From NCBI RefSeq assembly GCF_003002915.1, contig NZ_PVTG01000008.1:62001-126000 (forward strand): 64,000 nt of DNA, read 5' to 3'. Both the position numbers and the translations under genes were made by a program. This document shows, in pieces, positions 22,051 to 27,227 of this stretch (position 1 is the first letter of the stretch; each line of letters starts with the position of its first letter). The stretch comes from Geodermatophilus tzadiensis (lineage in GTDB: Bacteria; Actinomycetota; Actinomycetes; Mycobacteriales; Geodermatophilaceae). The notes beneath the pieces were generated by a model. That model ran no database searches. It was not told where the DNA came from and saw nothing but the letters and a program-made list of their open reading frames with translations.

Positions 22051-22241
22051 GTGCCCATGCTGGGGGCGCGGGCCGCCCGCCGCCGGACGACGTCTCACCG
22101 TCCGCGTCTCACCGTGCGCAGTGCCGCCGCGACCGCCCGCTGCGGTCGACCGCGCGTTGCACGACCGGGTGGCAGGCCAGCCGGTCGCGGCCGACACTCG
22201 CGGAGGACGGAGCCCCCCGTCGCTCCGGCTCCCCCCGGGAG

Positions 22242-24614
22242 ATGCTCCTGAGCCCCCAGACCCTCGGCCCCTACGAGCTCGACGAGCTGCTCGGCCGCGG
22301 ACGCACCGGCGAGGTGTACCGCGCCTGGGACACCCGCCGCTCGCGCGCCGTCGCGCTCGAGCTGGTCTCCCCCGCGCTCAGCGCCGACCCCCGCTTCCGC
22401 GCCCGCTTCCAGCAGGTGTGTGCCGCCGTCGCGCAACTGGACGAGCCGCACGTCCTCGCCGTGCACGAGATCGGCGAGGTCGACGGCCGGCTCTACGTCG
22501 ACAGCCAGCTGGTCGACGGCCGGTCGCTGGCGGCGGTGCTCGCCGCCGAGGGTCCCCTGCCGGCCGCGCTCGCGGTCGACGTCGTCGGCCAGGTGGCCGC
22601 GGCGCTCGACGCGGCGCACGCCGCGGGGATCGTGCACGGCGAGATCCGGGCGGCCGACGTCCTGCTGTCCGGGCACCCCGACCGCCCCGACGCCCACCTG
22701 TCCGGCTTCGGCCTCGCCGGCGCCGTCGGAGGCAGGACCACCGACCGCCGGGCCGACGTCTCCGCGCTGGCGGCCCTCCTCCACGAGGCGGTCACCGGCC
22801 GGCCGCCGGGCGACTCCCGGCGCGCCGGCGCGCTGCCGGGGGCGCTGGACGAGGTGGTGGCGCGGGGGACGGCCGCGGACCCCGGCCGGCGCTTCGCCAG
22901 CGCCGGCGAGCTCGCCGGTGCCGCCCGGGCGGCGCTGCGTCCGGCGGCCGACACCATCCCGGCGCGGGTGGTGGCCGCGCCGGCCCCGGCCGGCGCGGCG
23001 GCGTCGCGCGGTGCCGTGGCGGGGGCAGCGGCGTCGCGCGGTGCCGCGGTGGGGGCAGCGGCGTCGCGTGGTGCCGCGGCGGCGGTCCGCGGCCCGCGGC
23101 ACCGCCCGCCGGGGCGGTGGTCCGGACGCCGACGGGGCCTCGCCGCGGCGCTGATCGCCGGCGCGGTGGCGTTGAGCACCGCGGGCGGGGTGGCCGCGGT
23201 CCGGCTGGCCTCGGACGACTCCAGCGCGGCGACCTCGACGCCGGTCGTCGTGGAACCCTCCGACGAGCCCGGCGAGGACCCCTTCGTGCCGGCGCCGCCG
23301 GGCAGCGCCGACCCCACCCCGGGCACCGCCGACCCCAGCGGGAGCACCGCCGAGCCGTCGCAGGGCACCGCGGACCCGACCCAGGGCACCACCGGCCCAA
23401 CGGACGGGTCCGCGGCCGGGACCGCGGAGTCCCCATCGGGGACCGACACCTCGGGATCAGGGGCCGGGGCCTCGGGAGCAGGGCCCGGGGCCTCGGGATC
23501 GGGGGCCGGCACGCCGGCCGCGGCGGCGGCGGCGGGCGGCACGGTGCCGGGTGACCGGCCCGGTCTCTACGGCGGGTCCGGGGCCGAGGTCTGCGACGCC
23601 GCCGGCATGGCCGCGTTCCTCGCCGCGCACCCCGACCGGGGCGCTGCGTTCGCCGCCGTGGAGAGCATCCCGACCGACGGGATCGACACCTACCTGGCGT
23701 CCCTGACCCCGGTGGTGCTCCGCTTCGACACCGCCGTCACCAACCACGGGTTCGCCGACGGGCAGGCCGTCCCGTTCCAGTCCGTGCTGCAGGCCGGCAC
23801 CGCCGTGCTGGTCGACGACTCGGGCGTCCCGCAGGTCCGCTGCATCTGCGGCAACCCCCTGCAGCCGCCCGCCGACCGCCCGTCCCCCGAGTACGAGGGC
23901 GAGCCGTGGCCCGGCTTCGCGCCAGGGGCGGTGGTCGTGGTGGAGCGCAGCCCCGCGCCGCTGTCGGCGCTGGTGCTCGCGGATACGACGACCGGCGCGG
24001 TCGTGGCGCGGCCCGTGCACACCACGGGCGACACCGACCAGCCGGTCGACGCCACGCTGGCCGAGCGCGCCCGCGCGTTCGACGGGGACACCGGCGCGGG
24101 CAGGACGACGGCACCGGGCCCCGGCACGGAGGGACCGGCCGGCGAGGAGCCGCCGGACCCGGGCAGCACGGGCCAGGACGACCCGGGCCGAGGCGACACC
24201 GGCCGGAGCGACGGCGGCCAGGACGCCCCGGGTCAGGGCGAACCCGGCCAGGACGACACCGGCCAGGACGACACCGGCGAGCCGGACACCGCGACACCGG
24301 ACGGCGACGACGAGGCACCGGGCGAGACACCCGCCGAGGAGCCGAGCGAGGAGCCGAGCGAGGCGCCGGCCGAGGAGCCGGGCGATCAGCCGACGCCGAC
24401 CGGGGAGACGCCCAGCGACCAGCCGGCCCGCACCGAGGACACACCCACCGACGAGTCCCCGGAGGAACCGACCGAGGAGACGACGACCGGGCAGTCCCCG
24501 GCCGAGGAGTCGCCCACGGAGGAACCGACGGAGCAACCGACCGAGCAACCGACCGAGCAACCGACCGAGGAGCCGGCGACCACGACGTCCACCGGAGGAA
24601 CGTCCACTCCCTGA
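22242..24614 (+). CDS. Transmembrane pseudokinase with extracytoplasmic domain
   Basis: About 790 residues. A kinase-like domain (1-260) lacks every key catalytic residue: Glu40 replaces the ATP-binding Lys (RAVALEL), Val59 the helix-C Glu, HGE (132-134) replaces HRD, Asp139 the catalytic-loop Asn, Gly155 the DFG Asp, and the activation loop is some 25 residues shorter than in its neighbour. A transmembrane helix follows (about 300-322), a Ser/Thr/Pro/Gly linker, then a domain (about 436-612) shared with the next gene ([41 protein letters not shown]), and an acidic repeat tail. The ATG at 22242 touches GGGAG; a CTG at 22248 aligns with the neighbour's start. Likely a partner or regulator of the next kinase. 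Confidence 0.88.
22998..23087 (+). repeat. Three 30-bp tandem repeats in the pseudokinase linker
   Basis: A 30-bp unit repeats three times with few changes (phases at 23001, 23031 and 23061), encoding [14 protein letters not shown] decapeptides just before the membrane helix. Perfect period in codons keeps the frame; copy number could vary between strains. Confidence 0.8.
24517..24570 (+). repeat. 12-bp tandem repeats in the pseudokinase tail
   Basis: Units of the form GAGCAACCGACC repeat about four times, encoding Glu-Gln-Pro-Thr. They are part of a longer acidic Glu/Pro/Thr tail (24310-24600) expected to be disordered outside the membrane. Confidence 0.75.
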
Positions 24615-24839
24615 CCGGCGCGTGTGGAGCCCGGAGGACGGCCGGCGTCCCCGTCGGTCGTGACGGACCCCTCCTCCTCACCCGCTGCAGCCGTGTCGCG
24701 ACCCCCTGGTGGCCCACGCCGGGGCCGCTCCACGGTGGCCCGGACGGCGCCCGGGTGGGTGGACACGGGCGCCGGGTGCTCCGGAGACTCCGCGTCCGGC
24801 GCAGCACCTTGCCGTCAGCACCACCCGGGAGGTCCACCC

Positions 24840-27227
24840 GTGAACCCGGAGACCTTCGGTCCGTACGAGCTGCTCGAGCTGCTCGGCCGGGGCGGCATGG
24901 GCGAGGTCCACCGCGCCTGGGACACCCGCCGGGGGCGGGTGGTGGCGCTCAAGCGACTCCTCCCCGAGCTGGCCGACGACGAGCAGTTCCGCGCCCGCTT
25001 CTACCGGGAGTGCAACGGCGCGGCCCGGCTCAACGAGGCACACGTCGTCCCCATCCACGACTTCGGCGAGATCGACGGCCGGCTCTACCTCGACATGCGC
25101 CTGGTCGACGGCCGGGACCTGTCCGAGCTCCTCGAGCAGGAGGGGCCGTTCCCGGCCGACCTGGCCGTCACCGTCGTCGAGCAGGTGGCGGCGGCGCTGG
25201 ACGCCGCGCACGCGGCCGGGATCGTCCACCGCGACGTCAAGCCGTCGAACGTGCTGGTGACCGGCACGGGGACGGTCCCGCACTGCTACCTGGTCGACTT
25301 CGGCATCGCCGGGACCACCGGAGGGCGGACGACCGGCTCGCTGACCCGGACCGGCATGTTCGTCGGGACCCTGGAGTACGTCGCACCGGAGCGCCTGGGC
25401 GACGGCCCGACCGACCACCGCGTCGACGTCTACTCCCTGGCCTGCTTGCTCCACCAGCTCCTCATCGGCCAGCCGCCGTTCCCCACCTCCGAACCGGCCG
25501 CGCTGTGCGCGGCGCACCTCTACCGCGAGCCGCCACGGCCGTCGGAGACGGTGCCCTCCCTGCCCCGGGCACTGGACACGGTCATCGCCCGCGGGATGGC
25601 CAAGGACCCCGAGGCCCGGTACCCGAGCGCGGGAGCGCTGGCCTGGGCGGCCCGGGCGGCGCTGGGCGACGACCACGTCCGGACGCCGGTCGGGCCCGTC
25701 GGGGGCGCGCCGCCGACCACGACCCCGCCGCCCCCGGCCCGACCGCCCCTGACGCCACCGCCTCCGGTGCCGCCTGCAGCGTCGACGACCGGTGGGTACG
25801 GGGCCGCCGCGTTCCCACCACCGCCTCCGACCCTGGTCCCGGCGGCCCGCTCCGAGGGAGGCCTGCCCCCGACCGCCACCGGGACGGCGTCGCCACCGCC
25901 CGACGGGCCCCGCGCTGCGCGGCGGCCGGCGGGGACGCGGCCGGCCCGGCGGCGTCTCACGGCAGCCCTGGTCGCCCTCGCGGTCGCCGCCGCCGCCGCG
26001 GGCGGAGTGGTCGCGGCACAGCTCCTCGGTGAGGGCACCGCGGTGGCCACCGAGGCGATCGACGACCCCGGCGACCACCCGTTCCACGTCCCCACGCCCG
26101 AGGCCGGAGGCCAGATGGGCGAGCAGGCGCCCCCGCCCGATCCTCCGTCGACCGCGCCGCCGGAGGGCGTGTACGGCGACCAGCCCGGCCTCTACGGCGG
26201 GACGGGAGCGGAGGTGTGTGACAAGGCAGCGCTGACCGAGTTCCTCGAGACCCACCCCAGCGAGGCGGCCGCCTGGGCGGACGCGCAGGACATCGCACCC
26301 ACCGAGATCGGCGCCTACATCGACCGACTGACGCCGGTGGTGCTCCGCTTCGACACCGCCGTGACCAACCACGGGTTCGAGGGTGGCCGGGCGACGCCGT
26401 TCCAGTCGGTGCTCCAGGCCGGGACCGCGGTCCTCGTCGACGAGTACGGCTCACCGCAGGTGCGCTGCGCGTGCGGCAACCCGCTCGACCCGCCCGCACC
26501 CCGTCCGTCCCCGGAGTACGAGGACGCGGCGTGGCCGGCGTTCTCCGACGACGTCGTGGTCGAGGTGACGCCGGCGGTCGTGGTCGTCGAGGTCCTGGTC
26601 GTCGTCGAGATCGACGGGCAGATCGTGGAACGGCCGCGAGGGACCACCGGTGAGGCGGACCGGGCACCCGACCCCAAGACGTTGGAGGAGGCCCAGGACT
26701 TCGTCGAGGACCCGACGACCGCCACCCCGCCCCCGGCCACCACGAGCCCGGCCGGCACGGCCCCCACCACCACGAGCCCGACCACCACGAGCCCGACCAC
26801 CAGACCGACCACGACGCACCCCACCACCGCAGCGACCACCACGGCCACCACCACCACCACCGCACCGACCACCACCACGCCTGCCCCGACCACCACGAAC
26901 CCGGCCACCACGGCACCGACCACGACGGCACGGACCACCACCACGGCACCGACCACCACCAGCCCGACCACCACAGCCCCCACCACCAGCCCGACCACCA
27001 CCACGGCACCGACCACCACCAGCCCGACCACCACGGCCCCGACCACCACGCCCCCCTCGACGTCCGCGGGGCCGTCCACCGACGACGCGAGCGAGGGTCC
27101 GACGGGCGGGTCCCCGGACACCACCACCGGCGACGCCGAGGAACCACCGGACGACGGAGCTCCACCGGCCGGTGGGGAACAGCCGCCGGTCGACACGGGT
27201 CCAGCGGACGGCGAGCCCGGCGCCTGA
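24840..27227 (+). CDS. Transmembrane serine/threonine protein kinase (PknB-like, intact)
   Basis: 795 residues, GTG behind GGGAGGTCC. Seen: complete kinase domain (1-270) with glycine loop GRGGMGEV, Lys38 (VVALKRL), Glu57, HRDVKPSN (130-137), DFG (153-155) and activation segment TGMFVGTLEYVAPERL. A Pro-rich juxtamembrane stretch leads to a membrane helix near 372-397 (LTAALVALAVAAAAAGG), then an extracytoplasmic domain (about 442-616: QPGLYGGTGAEVCDK, TNHGFEGGRATPFQSVLQ, RCACGNPLD) and a long Thr/Pro/Ser tail (TTTSPTTTAPTTT). From memory the domain resembles the uncharacterised actinobacterial DUF6777. Role: phosphorelay by Ser/Thr phosphorylation in response to an external cue. Paralogue of the upstream pseudokinase. 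Confidence 0.94.
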   Translation: MNPETFGPYELLELLGRGGMGEVHRAWDTRRGRVVALKRLLPELADDEQFRARFYRECNGAARLNEAHVVPIHDFGEIDGRLYLDMRLVDGRDLSELLEQEGPFPADLAVTVVEQVAAALDAAHAAGIVHRDVKPSNVLVTGTGTVPHCYLVDFGIAGTTGGRTTGSLTRTGMFVGTLEYVAPERLGDGPTDHRVDVYSLACLLHQLLIGQPPFPTSEPAALCAAHLYREPPRPSETVPSLPRALDTVIARGMAKDPEARYPSAGALAWAARAALGDDHVRTPVGPVGGAPPTTTPPPPARPPLTPPPPVPPAASTTGGYGAAAFPPPPPTLVPAARSEGGLPPTATGTASPPPDGPRAARRPAGTRPARRRLTAALVALAVAAAAAGGVVAAQLLGEGTAVATEAIDDPGDHPFHVPTPEAGGQMGEQAPPPDPPSTAPPEGVYGDQPGLYGGTGAEVCDKAALTEFLETHPSEAAAWADAQDIAPTEIGAYIDRLTPVVLRFDTAVTNHGFEGGRATPFQSVLQAGTAVLVDEYGSPQVRCACGNPLDPPAPRPSPEYEDAAWPAFSDDVVVEVTPAVVVVEVLVVVEIDGQIVERPRGTTGEADRAPDPKTLEEAQDFVEDPTTATPPPATTSPAGTAPTTTSPTTTSPTTRPTTTHPTTAATTTATTTTTAPTTTTPAPTTTNPATTAPTTTARTTTTAPTTTSPTTTAPTTSPTTTTAPTTTSPTTTAPTTTPPSTSAGPSTDDASEGPTGGSPDTTTGDAEEPPDDGAPPAGGEQPPVDTGPADGEPGA
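26730..27056 (+). repeat. ACC-rich codon repeats encoding a Thr/Pro stalk
   Basis: The kinase gene's 3' part is an imperfect repeat of ACCACC and CCGACCACC units (threonine and proline codons, some Ser/Ala). The protein segment resembles mucin-like stalks that actinobacteria can O-mannosylate. Prone to length variation. Confidence 0.8.

Follow-up and report, generated by a model that had tools for sequence, protein, structure and literature searches.

The window analyzed here, a stretch of 64,000 nucleotides from the soil actinobacterium Geodermatophilus tzadiensis, contains two adjacent genes, which we call a and b. Our results support the view that gene a encodes a genuine and conserved membrane-anchored pseudokinase that has kept its sensor domain, and that it is no broken gene. 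Gene b is, judged by alignment, its catalytically complete paralogue. Gene a persists in several related species, often in the absence of b, and probably has a function of its own beyond any help that it gives to b. Transmembrane pseudokinases of actinobacteria, including ActPs2 and ActPs3, are already known, and those of bacteria in general have been catalogued, few of them with a known job according to the available part of that survey (PMC12599244). What is new is a pseudokinase receptor that carries DUF6777 and appears to derive from active DUF6777 kinases. In the literature searched, no mention of DUF6777 and no paper on serine/threonine kinases of Geodermatophilus could be found.

Architecture of the two genes

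Both genes lie on the forward strand with open frames. Gene a (22248..24614, from an inferred CTG start) would encode a pseudokinase domain (22263..22937), a transmembrane helix (23139..23201, by hydropathy), a DUF6777 domain (23541..24017; Pfam 4.8e-58) and an E/P/T-rich tail. Gene b (24840..27227, nominally 795 residues) follows the same plan with an active kinase domain (24855..25667), a transmembrane helix read by eye from the sequence (25956..26018), a DUF6777 domain (26169..26642; Pfam 3.6e-54) and a Thr/Pro repeat tail. This bears out the preliminary description of two same-strand paralogues of one plan, a Pfam Pkinase and a DUF6777 match being present in each, and the domain that it had noticed in both could be identified as DUF6777 (PF20568), with 57–60% identity between a and b and scores of 196 and 183.4 bits, respectively, against a cut-off of 27 bits. 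The predicted membrane topology would place DUF6777 outside the cell.

All residue losses previously named for gene a were recovered by alignment: the β3 Lys is replaced by Glu40, the αC Glu by Val59, HRD by HGE, the catalytic Asn by Asp139 and the DFG Asp by Gly155 (GFG), and the activation segment, the APE motif and the αG region are absent. The VAIK Lys, the HRD Asp and the DFG Asp, any of whose loss defines a pseudokinase, are thus all gone in the window copy, the product of which is probably catalytically dead. Gene b has K38, E57, HRD, N137, DFG and APE, as had been claimed. The earlier statement of loss at every site holds for the window copy but does not extend to the family, in which the HRD Asp is retained in 12 of 19 non-redundant a sequences, including the two nearest relatives (G006 and G025).

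A kinase fold could be recognized in gene a by the Pfam Pkinase model (PF00069; 52.8 bits over residues 11–166 only, compared with 152.5 bits over residues 9–261 in gene b), by a match to mycobacterial PknE (4.8e-49) and by AlphaFold2, which predicted a confident small kinase fold from 37 aligned sequences (pLDDT 91.7, pTM 0.89). Together with the retained DUF6777 domain and ω values well below 1 (see below), this agrees with the proposal that fold and sensor have been conserved. By sequence, both kinase domains had PknE (PDB 2h34) as their nearest relative of solved structure; for that of gene a, the top solved structures were those of PknE, PknB and PknI. PADLOC matches of both genes were to general kinase models (PD-T4-6 and others) and are uninformative on defence.

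The start of gene a had been missed in the preliminary description. The open reading frame from the ATG at 22242 (22242–24614, nominally 790 residues) is two codons longer than that from the CTG at 22248..22250 (forward strand), which aligns with the ATG or GTG starts of active paralogues. The ATG lies directly 3' of the putative ribosome-binding site of gene a (GGGAG, 22237..22241, forward strand, 6 nt before the CTG) and is absent from every other a copy. All nine genome copies of a read CTG where the active paralogues start, preceded at a distance of 5–6 nt by a Shine-Dalgarno-like site (GGAG in nine and GGGAG in eight of them), and the copy in G017 has zero ATG, GTG or TTG codons upstream in frame. 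In translated alignments, the residue at this position was Leu in 17 of 17 a sequences, and 21 of 22 active ones had Met or Val there. The comparison suggests that translation probably begins at the CTG and not at the ATG at 22242. Since CTG start codons are generally weak, gene a is likely to be expressed at a low level.

A candidate ribosome-binding site of gene b (GGGAGG, 24827..24832, forward strand) stands 7 nt ahead of its GTG. In the 225-bp gap between the genes (24615–24839), the blocks GGGTGGACAC and CTCCGGAGACTCC-like are kept in four of four genomes with the pair and are perhaps the promoter of b. A scan for promoter and terminator consensus sequences gave no match, about none being expected by chance in such GC-rich DNA.

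For the DUF6777 domain, AlphaFold2 predicted a confident fold from 49 aligned sequences (pLDDT 92.2), and a profile search returned no solved relative at E values up to 1. In a DUF6777 alignment of 49 sequences (window 23541–24065; numbering of the first sequence), Cys 18 and 101 were invariant and Cys 103 nearly so, and D63, N68 and W123 were also invariant. A disulfide or a ligand site is possible at these conserved residues.

The pseudokinase clade and its conservation

In a search with the DUF6777 domain of gene a, the best 8000 candidates were scored, and the best 120 of 1135 hits plus 24 genome open reading frames gave a set of 144 proteins. A kinase domain was present in 78, of which P0092, P0097 and P0104 could not be scored. 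Among the matches listed, the remaining 75 kinases fell into 23 without the β3 Lys, the Asn and the DFG Asp and 52 with the Lys, αC Glu, HRD, Asn and DFG. After removal of nine duplicates, 19 a sequences and 47 active kinases were left, and the β3 Lys, the catalytic-loop Asn and the DFG Asp were gone in 19 of 19 and retained in 47 of 47, respectively, again among the matches listed. The 19 sequences come from nine genomes of the genus, five database proteins from Geodermatophilus (P0005, P0008, P0010, P0014 and P0015) and five JGI proteins (P0007, P0009, P0011, P0012 and P0013). It should be noted that some are nearly identical (P0010/G003 and P0011/G011), so that they are not independent. Source names of the clade are so far Geodermatophilus only, and more distant DUF6777 pseudokinases possibly exist outside the matches listed.

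Within the 19 sequences, the β3 position is R in 10 and E in 9, the αC position is D in 9, V in 9 and E in 1, and the DFG Asp is replaced by G or H; the glycine loop is retained in every scored a sequence. The G017 copy still has HRD and keeps the APE Glu, and the activation-loop deletion varies inside the clade. Seven positions were fixed in 17 a sequences and rare in 22 active ones, namely the start codon, one position behind the kinase domain and five inside it.

In the kinase tree, the 19 a sequences formed one clade (100/100), which was joined (99/91) to a group of the four b genes, P0024 and P0026. The latter two, P0026 being from G. nigrescens, are active kinases close to b on long branches. 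The DUF6777 tree was based on 37 of 39 sequences (the cutting motif was not found in G001 and G086, which were dropped); it also recovered a as one clade (99/99), joined with b only at 87/70, and did not hold the b genes together. On the basis of these trees, a appears to have arisen as sister of the b lineage from active DUF6777 kinases.

A further conserved feature, not noticed before, is a short juxtamembrane motif, D-T-I-P in the window copy (22950..22961, forward strand), which is a candidate phospho-Thr docking site. Directly behind the last kinase helix, DT[VIL]P was present in 18 of 19 a sequences among the matches listed and genome open reading frames, and its Thr in all 19, the exception, P0005, reading ATVP. 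It is the single strongly conserved block from the last kinase helix to the basic residues before the membrane, the surrounding linker being variable. Behind the kinase domain, DT[VIL]P was found in none of the 47 active DUF6777 relatives among the matches listed; the same letters occur upstream of the kinase domain in the active relative G012, and RTP occurs near the equivalent place in the b genes of the window, G004 and G006. The Thr of this motif appears to be the likeliest phosphorylation site of gene a, but the motif may instead have some other purpose.

Constraint was measured with codon models (GY, F3X4), ω for trios of genes being estimated on a fixed grid. Nine a genes and four b genes gave, respectively, ω of 0.166 and 0.038 for the kinase domain, 0.095 and 0.125 for DUF6777, and 0.205 and 0.339 for the linkers; by grid, the b kinase domain was at 0.04 (0.03–0.06). 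In genomes with b (G000, G006 and G025), ω of the a kinase domain was 0.12 (grid interval 0.08–0.16; 2ΔlnL against ω = 1 of 105), and in genomes without b (G002, G003 and G008) it was 0.14 (0.10–0.20; 84). The NG86 ratios within the clade (0.27–0.50 for the a kinase domain, 0.12–0.26 for that of b) gave the same order of domains and were higher, as expected, because base and codon bias are ignored. Thus, the selection test that had been proposed for the pseudokinase indicated purifying selection, with ω of 0.12–0.17 and open frames in nine genomes; its pseudokinase domain is more loosely constrained than the active kinase and shows no visible drop in constraint without b. Compared with the kinase domain of b, this constraint is looser by a factor of three to four and near that of the linker (0.20–0.25), and part of it may be plain maintenance of the fold. 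Because the selection sets were small and linkers of biased composition also reach ω of 0.2–0.35, the margin above linker-like values is modest. The ω values and open frames make it unlikely that gene a is a pseudogene.

Occurrence and history of the locus

Using PF20568 as the only query, DUF6777 proteins were found in 14 of 26 genomes of the genus and 19 of 112 of the family, and the window genome has exactly two matches. Gene a is present, in frame and at one syntenic place, in nine of the 26 genomes, and gene b in four (G004, G000, G006 and G025), always adjoining a. In the other five carriers of a (G017, G011, G002, G003 and G008), a stands at the same locus without b and without any other DUF6777 gene. 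The view that gene a serves solely as partner to its active paralogue does not fit these five genomes, and strict co-occurrence is ruled out. The idea that the pair is conserved together stands in part, since four of nine a genomes have both genes and b occurs only beside a among the 26, but five a genomes lack b. Similarly, the pseudokinase frame, whose breakage or absence in sister strains had been named as telling against the proposal, is open in all nine carriers, whereas the whole cassette is absent from G007.

In all nine a genomes, the same two genes, for an SDR protein and a WYL regulator, flank the gene or pair; a serine protease gene lies upstream and one for a mycothiol-S-transferase downstream. 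The corresponding site was inspected in 11 further loci, from G007 and ten more genomes of the genus, and no match to the a/b kinases or DUF6777 was found. The aligned parts of SDR and WYL were separated by ∼390–470 bp in G012, G018, G013 and G016, by ∼620 bp in G019 and by 1.0–1.9 kb in G005, G009, G010 and G020; in G015 the SDR match was partial, at the edge of the locus. In G007 (L155:8392-8452), which lies inside the clade otherwise carrying a, the two aligned ends are only ∼60 bp apart.

In a midpoint-rooted rpoB tree, which covered all 26 genomes but G022 (no rpoB match) and thus 25, the nine a genomes and G007 formed one group (100/99), which suggests that a was present before these ten sampled genomes diversified. 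The cassette probably entered or formed at the SDR/WYL site before the clade split, because it occupies the same locus in nine genomes and was found at none of the others checked. Gene b was probably lost at least once, perhaps several times, and a was probably lost in G007. The position of G011 differed between trees: it grouped with G000, G006 and G025 in the kinase tree (100/98), and with G002, G003 and G008 (89/87) and with G017 (96/94) in the rpoB tree, so that a may have passed between species, or one of the trees may be wrong here. The clade offers a natural series that comprises active sisters, the partly altered G017 copy with HRD kept, the cut window copy, genomes with and without b, and the empty site of G007.

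Possible roles of the pseudokinase

The reading that we prefer, with confidence falling a little short of even, is that gene a encodes a phosphorylatable, non-catalytic DUF6777 receptor acting as a scaffold or regulator, in a mode like that of MviN though probably not of its lineage. It is suggested by the long retention of a dead kinase domain together with a new Thr motif close to the membrane. DUF6777 would read a signal outside the cell, and the pseudokinase domain inside would offer a folded scaffold or docking surface. The Thr of DT[VIL]P would accept phosphate from other Ser/Thr kinases (b where present, otherwise a kinase of the PknE/PknB type) and, once phosphorylated, might recruit a phospho-Thr-binding FHA protein. 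The CTG start would keep gene a at a low level, and a would persist where b is lost and may also tune b where it survives. Its phosphorylation, its reader protein and its signal are all presumed. The Thr motif and the CTG start are two handles that make the role of a dead bacterial receptor kinase testable in soil bacteria.

The FHA-recruiting step follows the precedent of MviN (Rv3910) of Mycobacterium tuberculosis, a pseudokinase described in the available part of PMC12599244 as deficient in ATP and Mg binding and as recruiting FhaA once PknB has phosphorylated its tail. Like ActPs3/MviN, gene a of the window is actinobacterial and has lost all catalytic motifs, with a deletion in the activation loop and a membrane anchor C-terminal to the kinase fold; in MviN, the phosphorylated tail likewise lies behind the pseudokinase domain. 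The motifs differ, being VALT and Lsidhpsr in MviN, as given in the same source (PMC12599244), and VAL[RE], H[GR][DEGS] and [GH]FG in gene a, which appears to be of PknE lineage. Descent from the MviN lineage looks unlikely; in the kinase tree, which was built without MviN, a was nearest to active DUF6777 kinases and b, and its best solved relatives (PknE, PknB and PknI) likewise speak against it. The exchange of the HRD Asp for Asn and the ∼250-aa activation-loop insertion that characterize ActPs2 were not found in gene a. ActPs1, which is reported to be close to Act1 and often to carry a PQQ domain (PMC12599244, available part), resembles it in the substitution of all three catalytic residues and in lacking αG (in ∼60% of ActPs1), but gene a carries DUF6777 and is nearest to active DUF6777 kinases. 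Among transmembrane Ser/Thr kinases of the PknE/StpK7 type, NF052427 (StpK7) ranked first of the NCBIfam models that match the kinase part, although its cut-off of 900 bits was not reached by a (176.9) or b (338.8); unlike these kinases, gene a has no catalytic residues, activation segment or αG, and its outer domain is DUF6777.

The preliminary proposal of a dedicated inactive partner, in which a tunes b within a heterodimer held together by DUF6777, by the kinase N-lobes or by both, now appears rather doubtful. The genes are in tandem on one strand with the same architecture and 57–60% identity in DUF6777, the pair is conserved in four genomes and b was seen only beside a. At the N-lobe dimer contacts of PknB, which we take to be Leu33 and Asp76, gene a has, by position, R33 and E76 (at the latter site, a genes vary between Glu, Asp and Gly), which is clear evidence neither for nor against a heterodimer. 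PknB and PknE-type kinases dimerise via the N-lobe, which activates PknB (PMC3601408, available part), and such dimers would provide a route for pairing. However, five of the nine a genomes lack b, the kinase domain of a is not visibly relaxed when b is missing, and the similar constraint with and without b is the main evidence against a job existing only through b. In addition, the conserved blocks in the gap mean that b may have its own promoter. A partner of a without DUF6777 would be missed by a search for PF20568 alone.

Less probable again is a decoy function, in which a, its cytoplasmic part idle, would vie with b or with further DUF6777 proteins over the ligand or over DUF6777 dimers. 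The DUF6777 domain is similarly constrained in a (ω 0.09–0.10) and b (0.12–0.135), and the a kinase domain is more relaxed than that of b; but that domain is under selection, DT[VIL]P has been kept and five genomes have no other DUF6777 protein with which a could compete.

Elements of these readings could be combined in the four pair genomes: DUF6777 would drive an a–b heterodimer, the CTG start would set a low ratio of pseudokinase to kinase, b would phosphorylate the Thr of DT[VIL]P to recruit an FHA effector, and after loss of b another kinase would take over a. We regard this full scheme as improbable. If true, bacteria would have their own version of the receptor kinase/pseudokinase pairs of eukaryotes, and one whose evolution can be followed stepwise in living species. 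In the C. elegans KIN-16 family, a receptor tyrosine kinase is paired with a pseudokinase (PMC10523662, available part), whereas here a often occurs without b and their pairing is only possible.

A decaying, functionless duplicate whose catalytic part rots first is very unlikely. In its favour, the losses are not the same in every sub-clade (β3 Lys to R or E, αC Glu to D or V, HRD retained in some only), the deletions grow in the E/V group and the cassette is absent from G007 inside the clade, but frames are open in nine of nine genomes, ω is well below 1 in both domains, the clade has its own motif and nine species retain a. Least credible, and hardly to be expected, is that a can still bind nucleotide or carry out some other transfer reaction, as in SelO or SidJ, in spite of its lost motifs; the glycine loop is present in all scored a sequences and in the R/D sub-group the β3 Arg and αC Asp could pair, but the metal-binding Asp and the Asn are lost in 19 of 19, and among the residues fixed specifically in a (17 a against 22 active sequences), the five that lie within the domain offer no evident catalytic substitute for a repurposed nucleotide pocket.

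DUF6777 was found attached to kinases, TIR, Hsp70-like and other modules, and looks like a general outer sensor module for kinase and TIR proteins. The DUF6777 proteins L118:7630-10701 (G001), L106:8053-11238 (a third copy in G004) and L123:9598-12249 (G086) have an N-terminus without match to the a/b kinase domains; that of G001 gave only an APH hit below cut-off and is perhaps a further divergent kinase. Fusions of an Hsp70/MreB-like ATPase to DUF6777 were seen in P0040, P0043, P0060, P0086, P0103 and P0115. N-terminal TIR–DUF6777 fusions occur in L114:7554-10511 (G009, same genus), P0028, P0031, P0033–P0035, P0087 and others, P0087 being a weak match to a ThsB-type TIR model.
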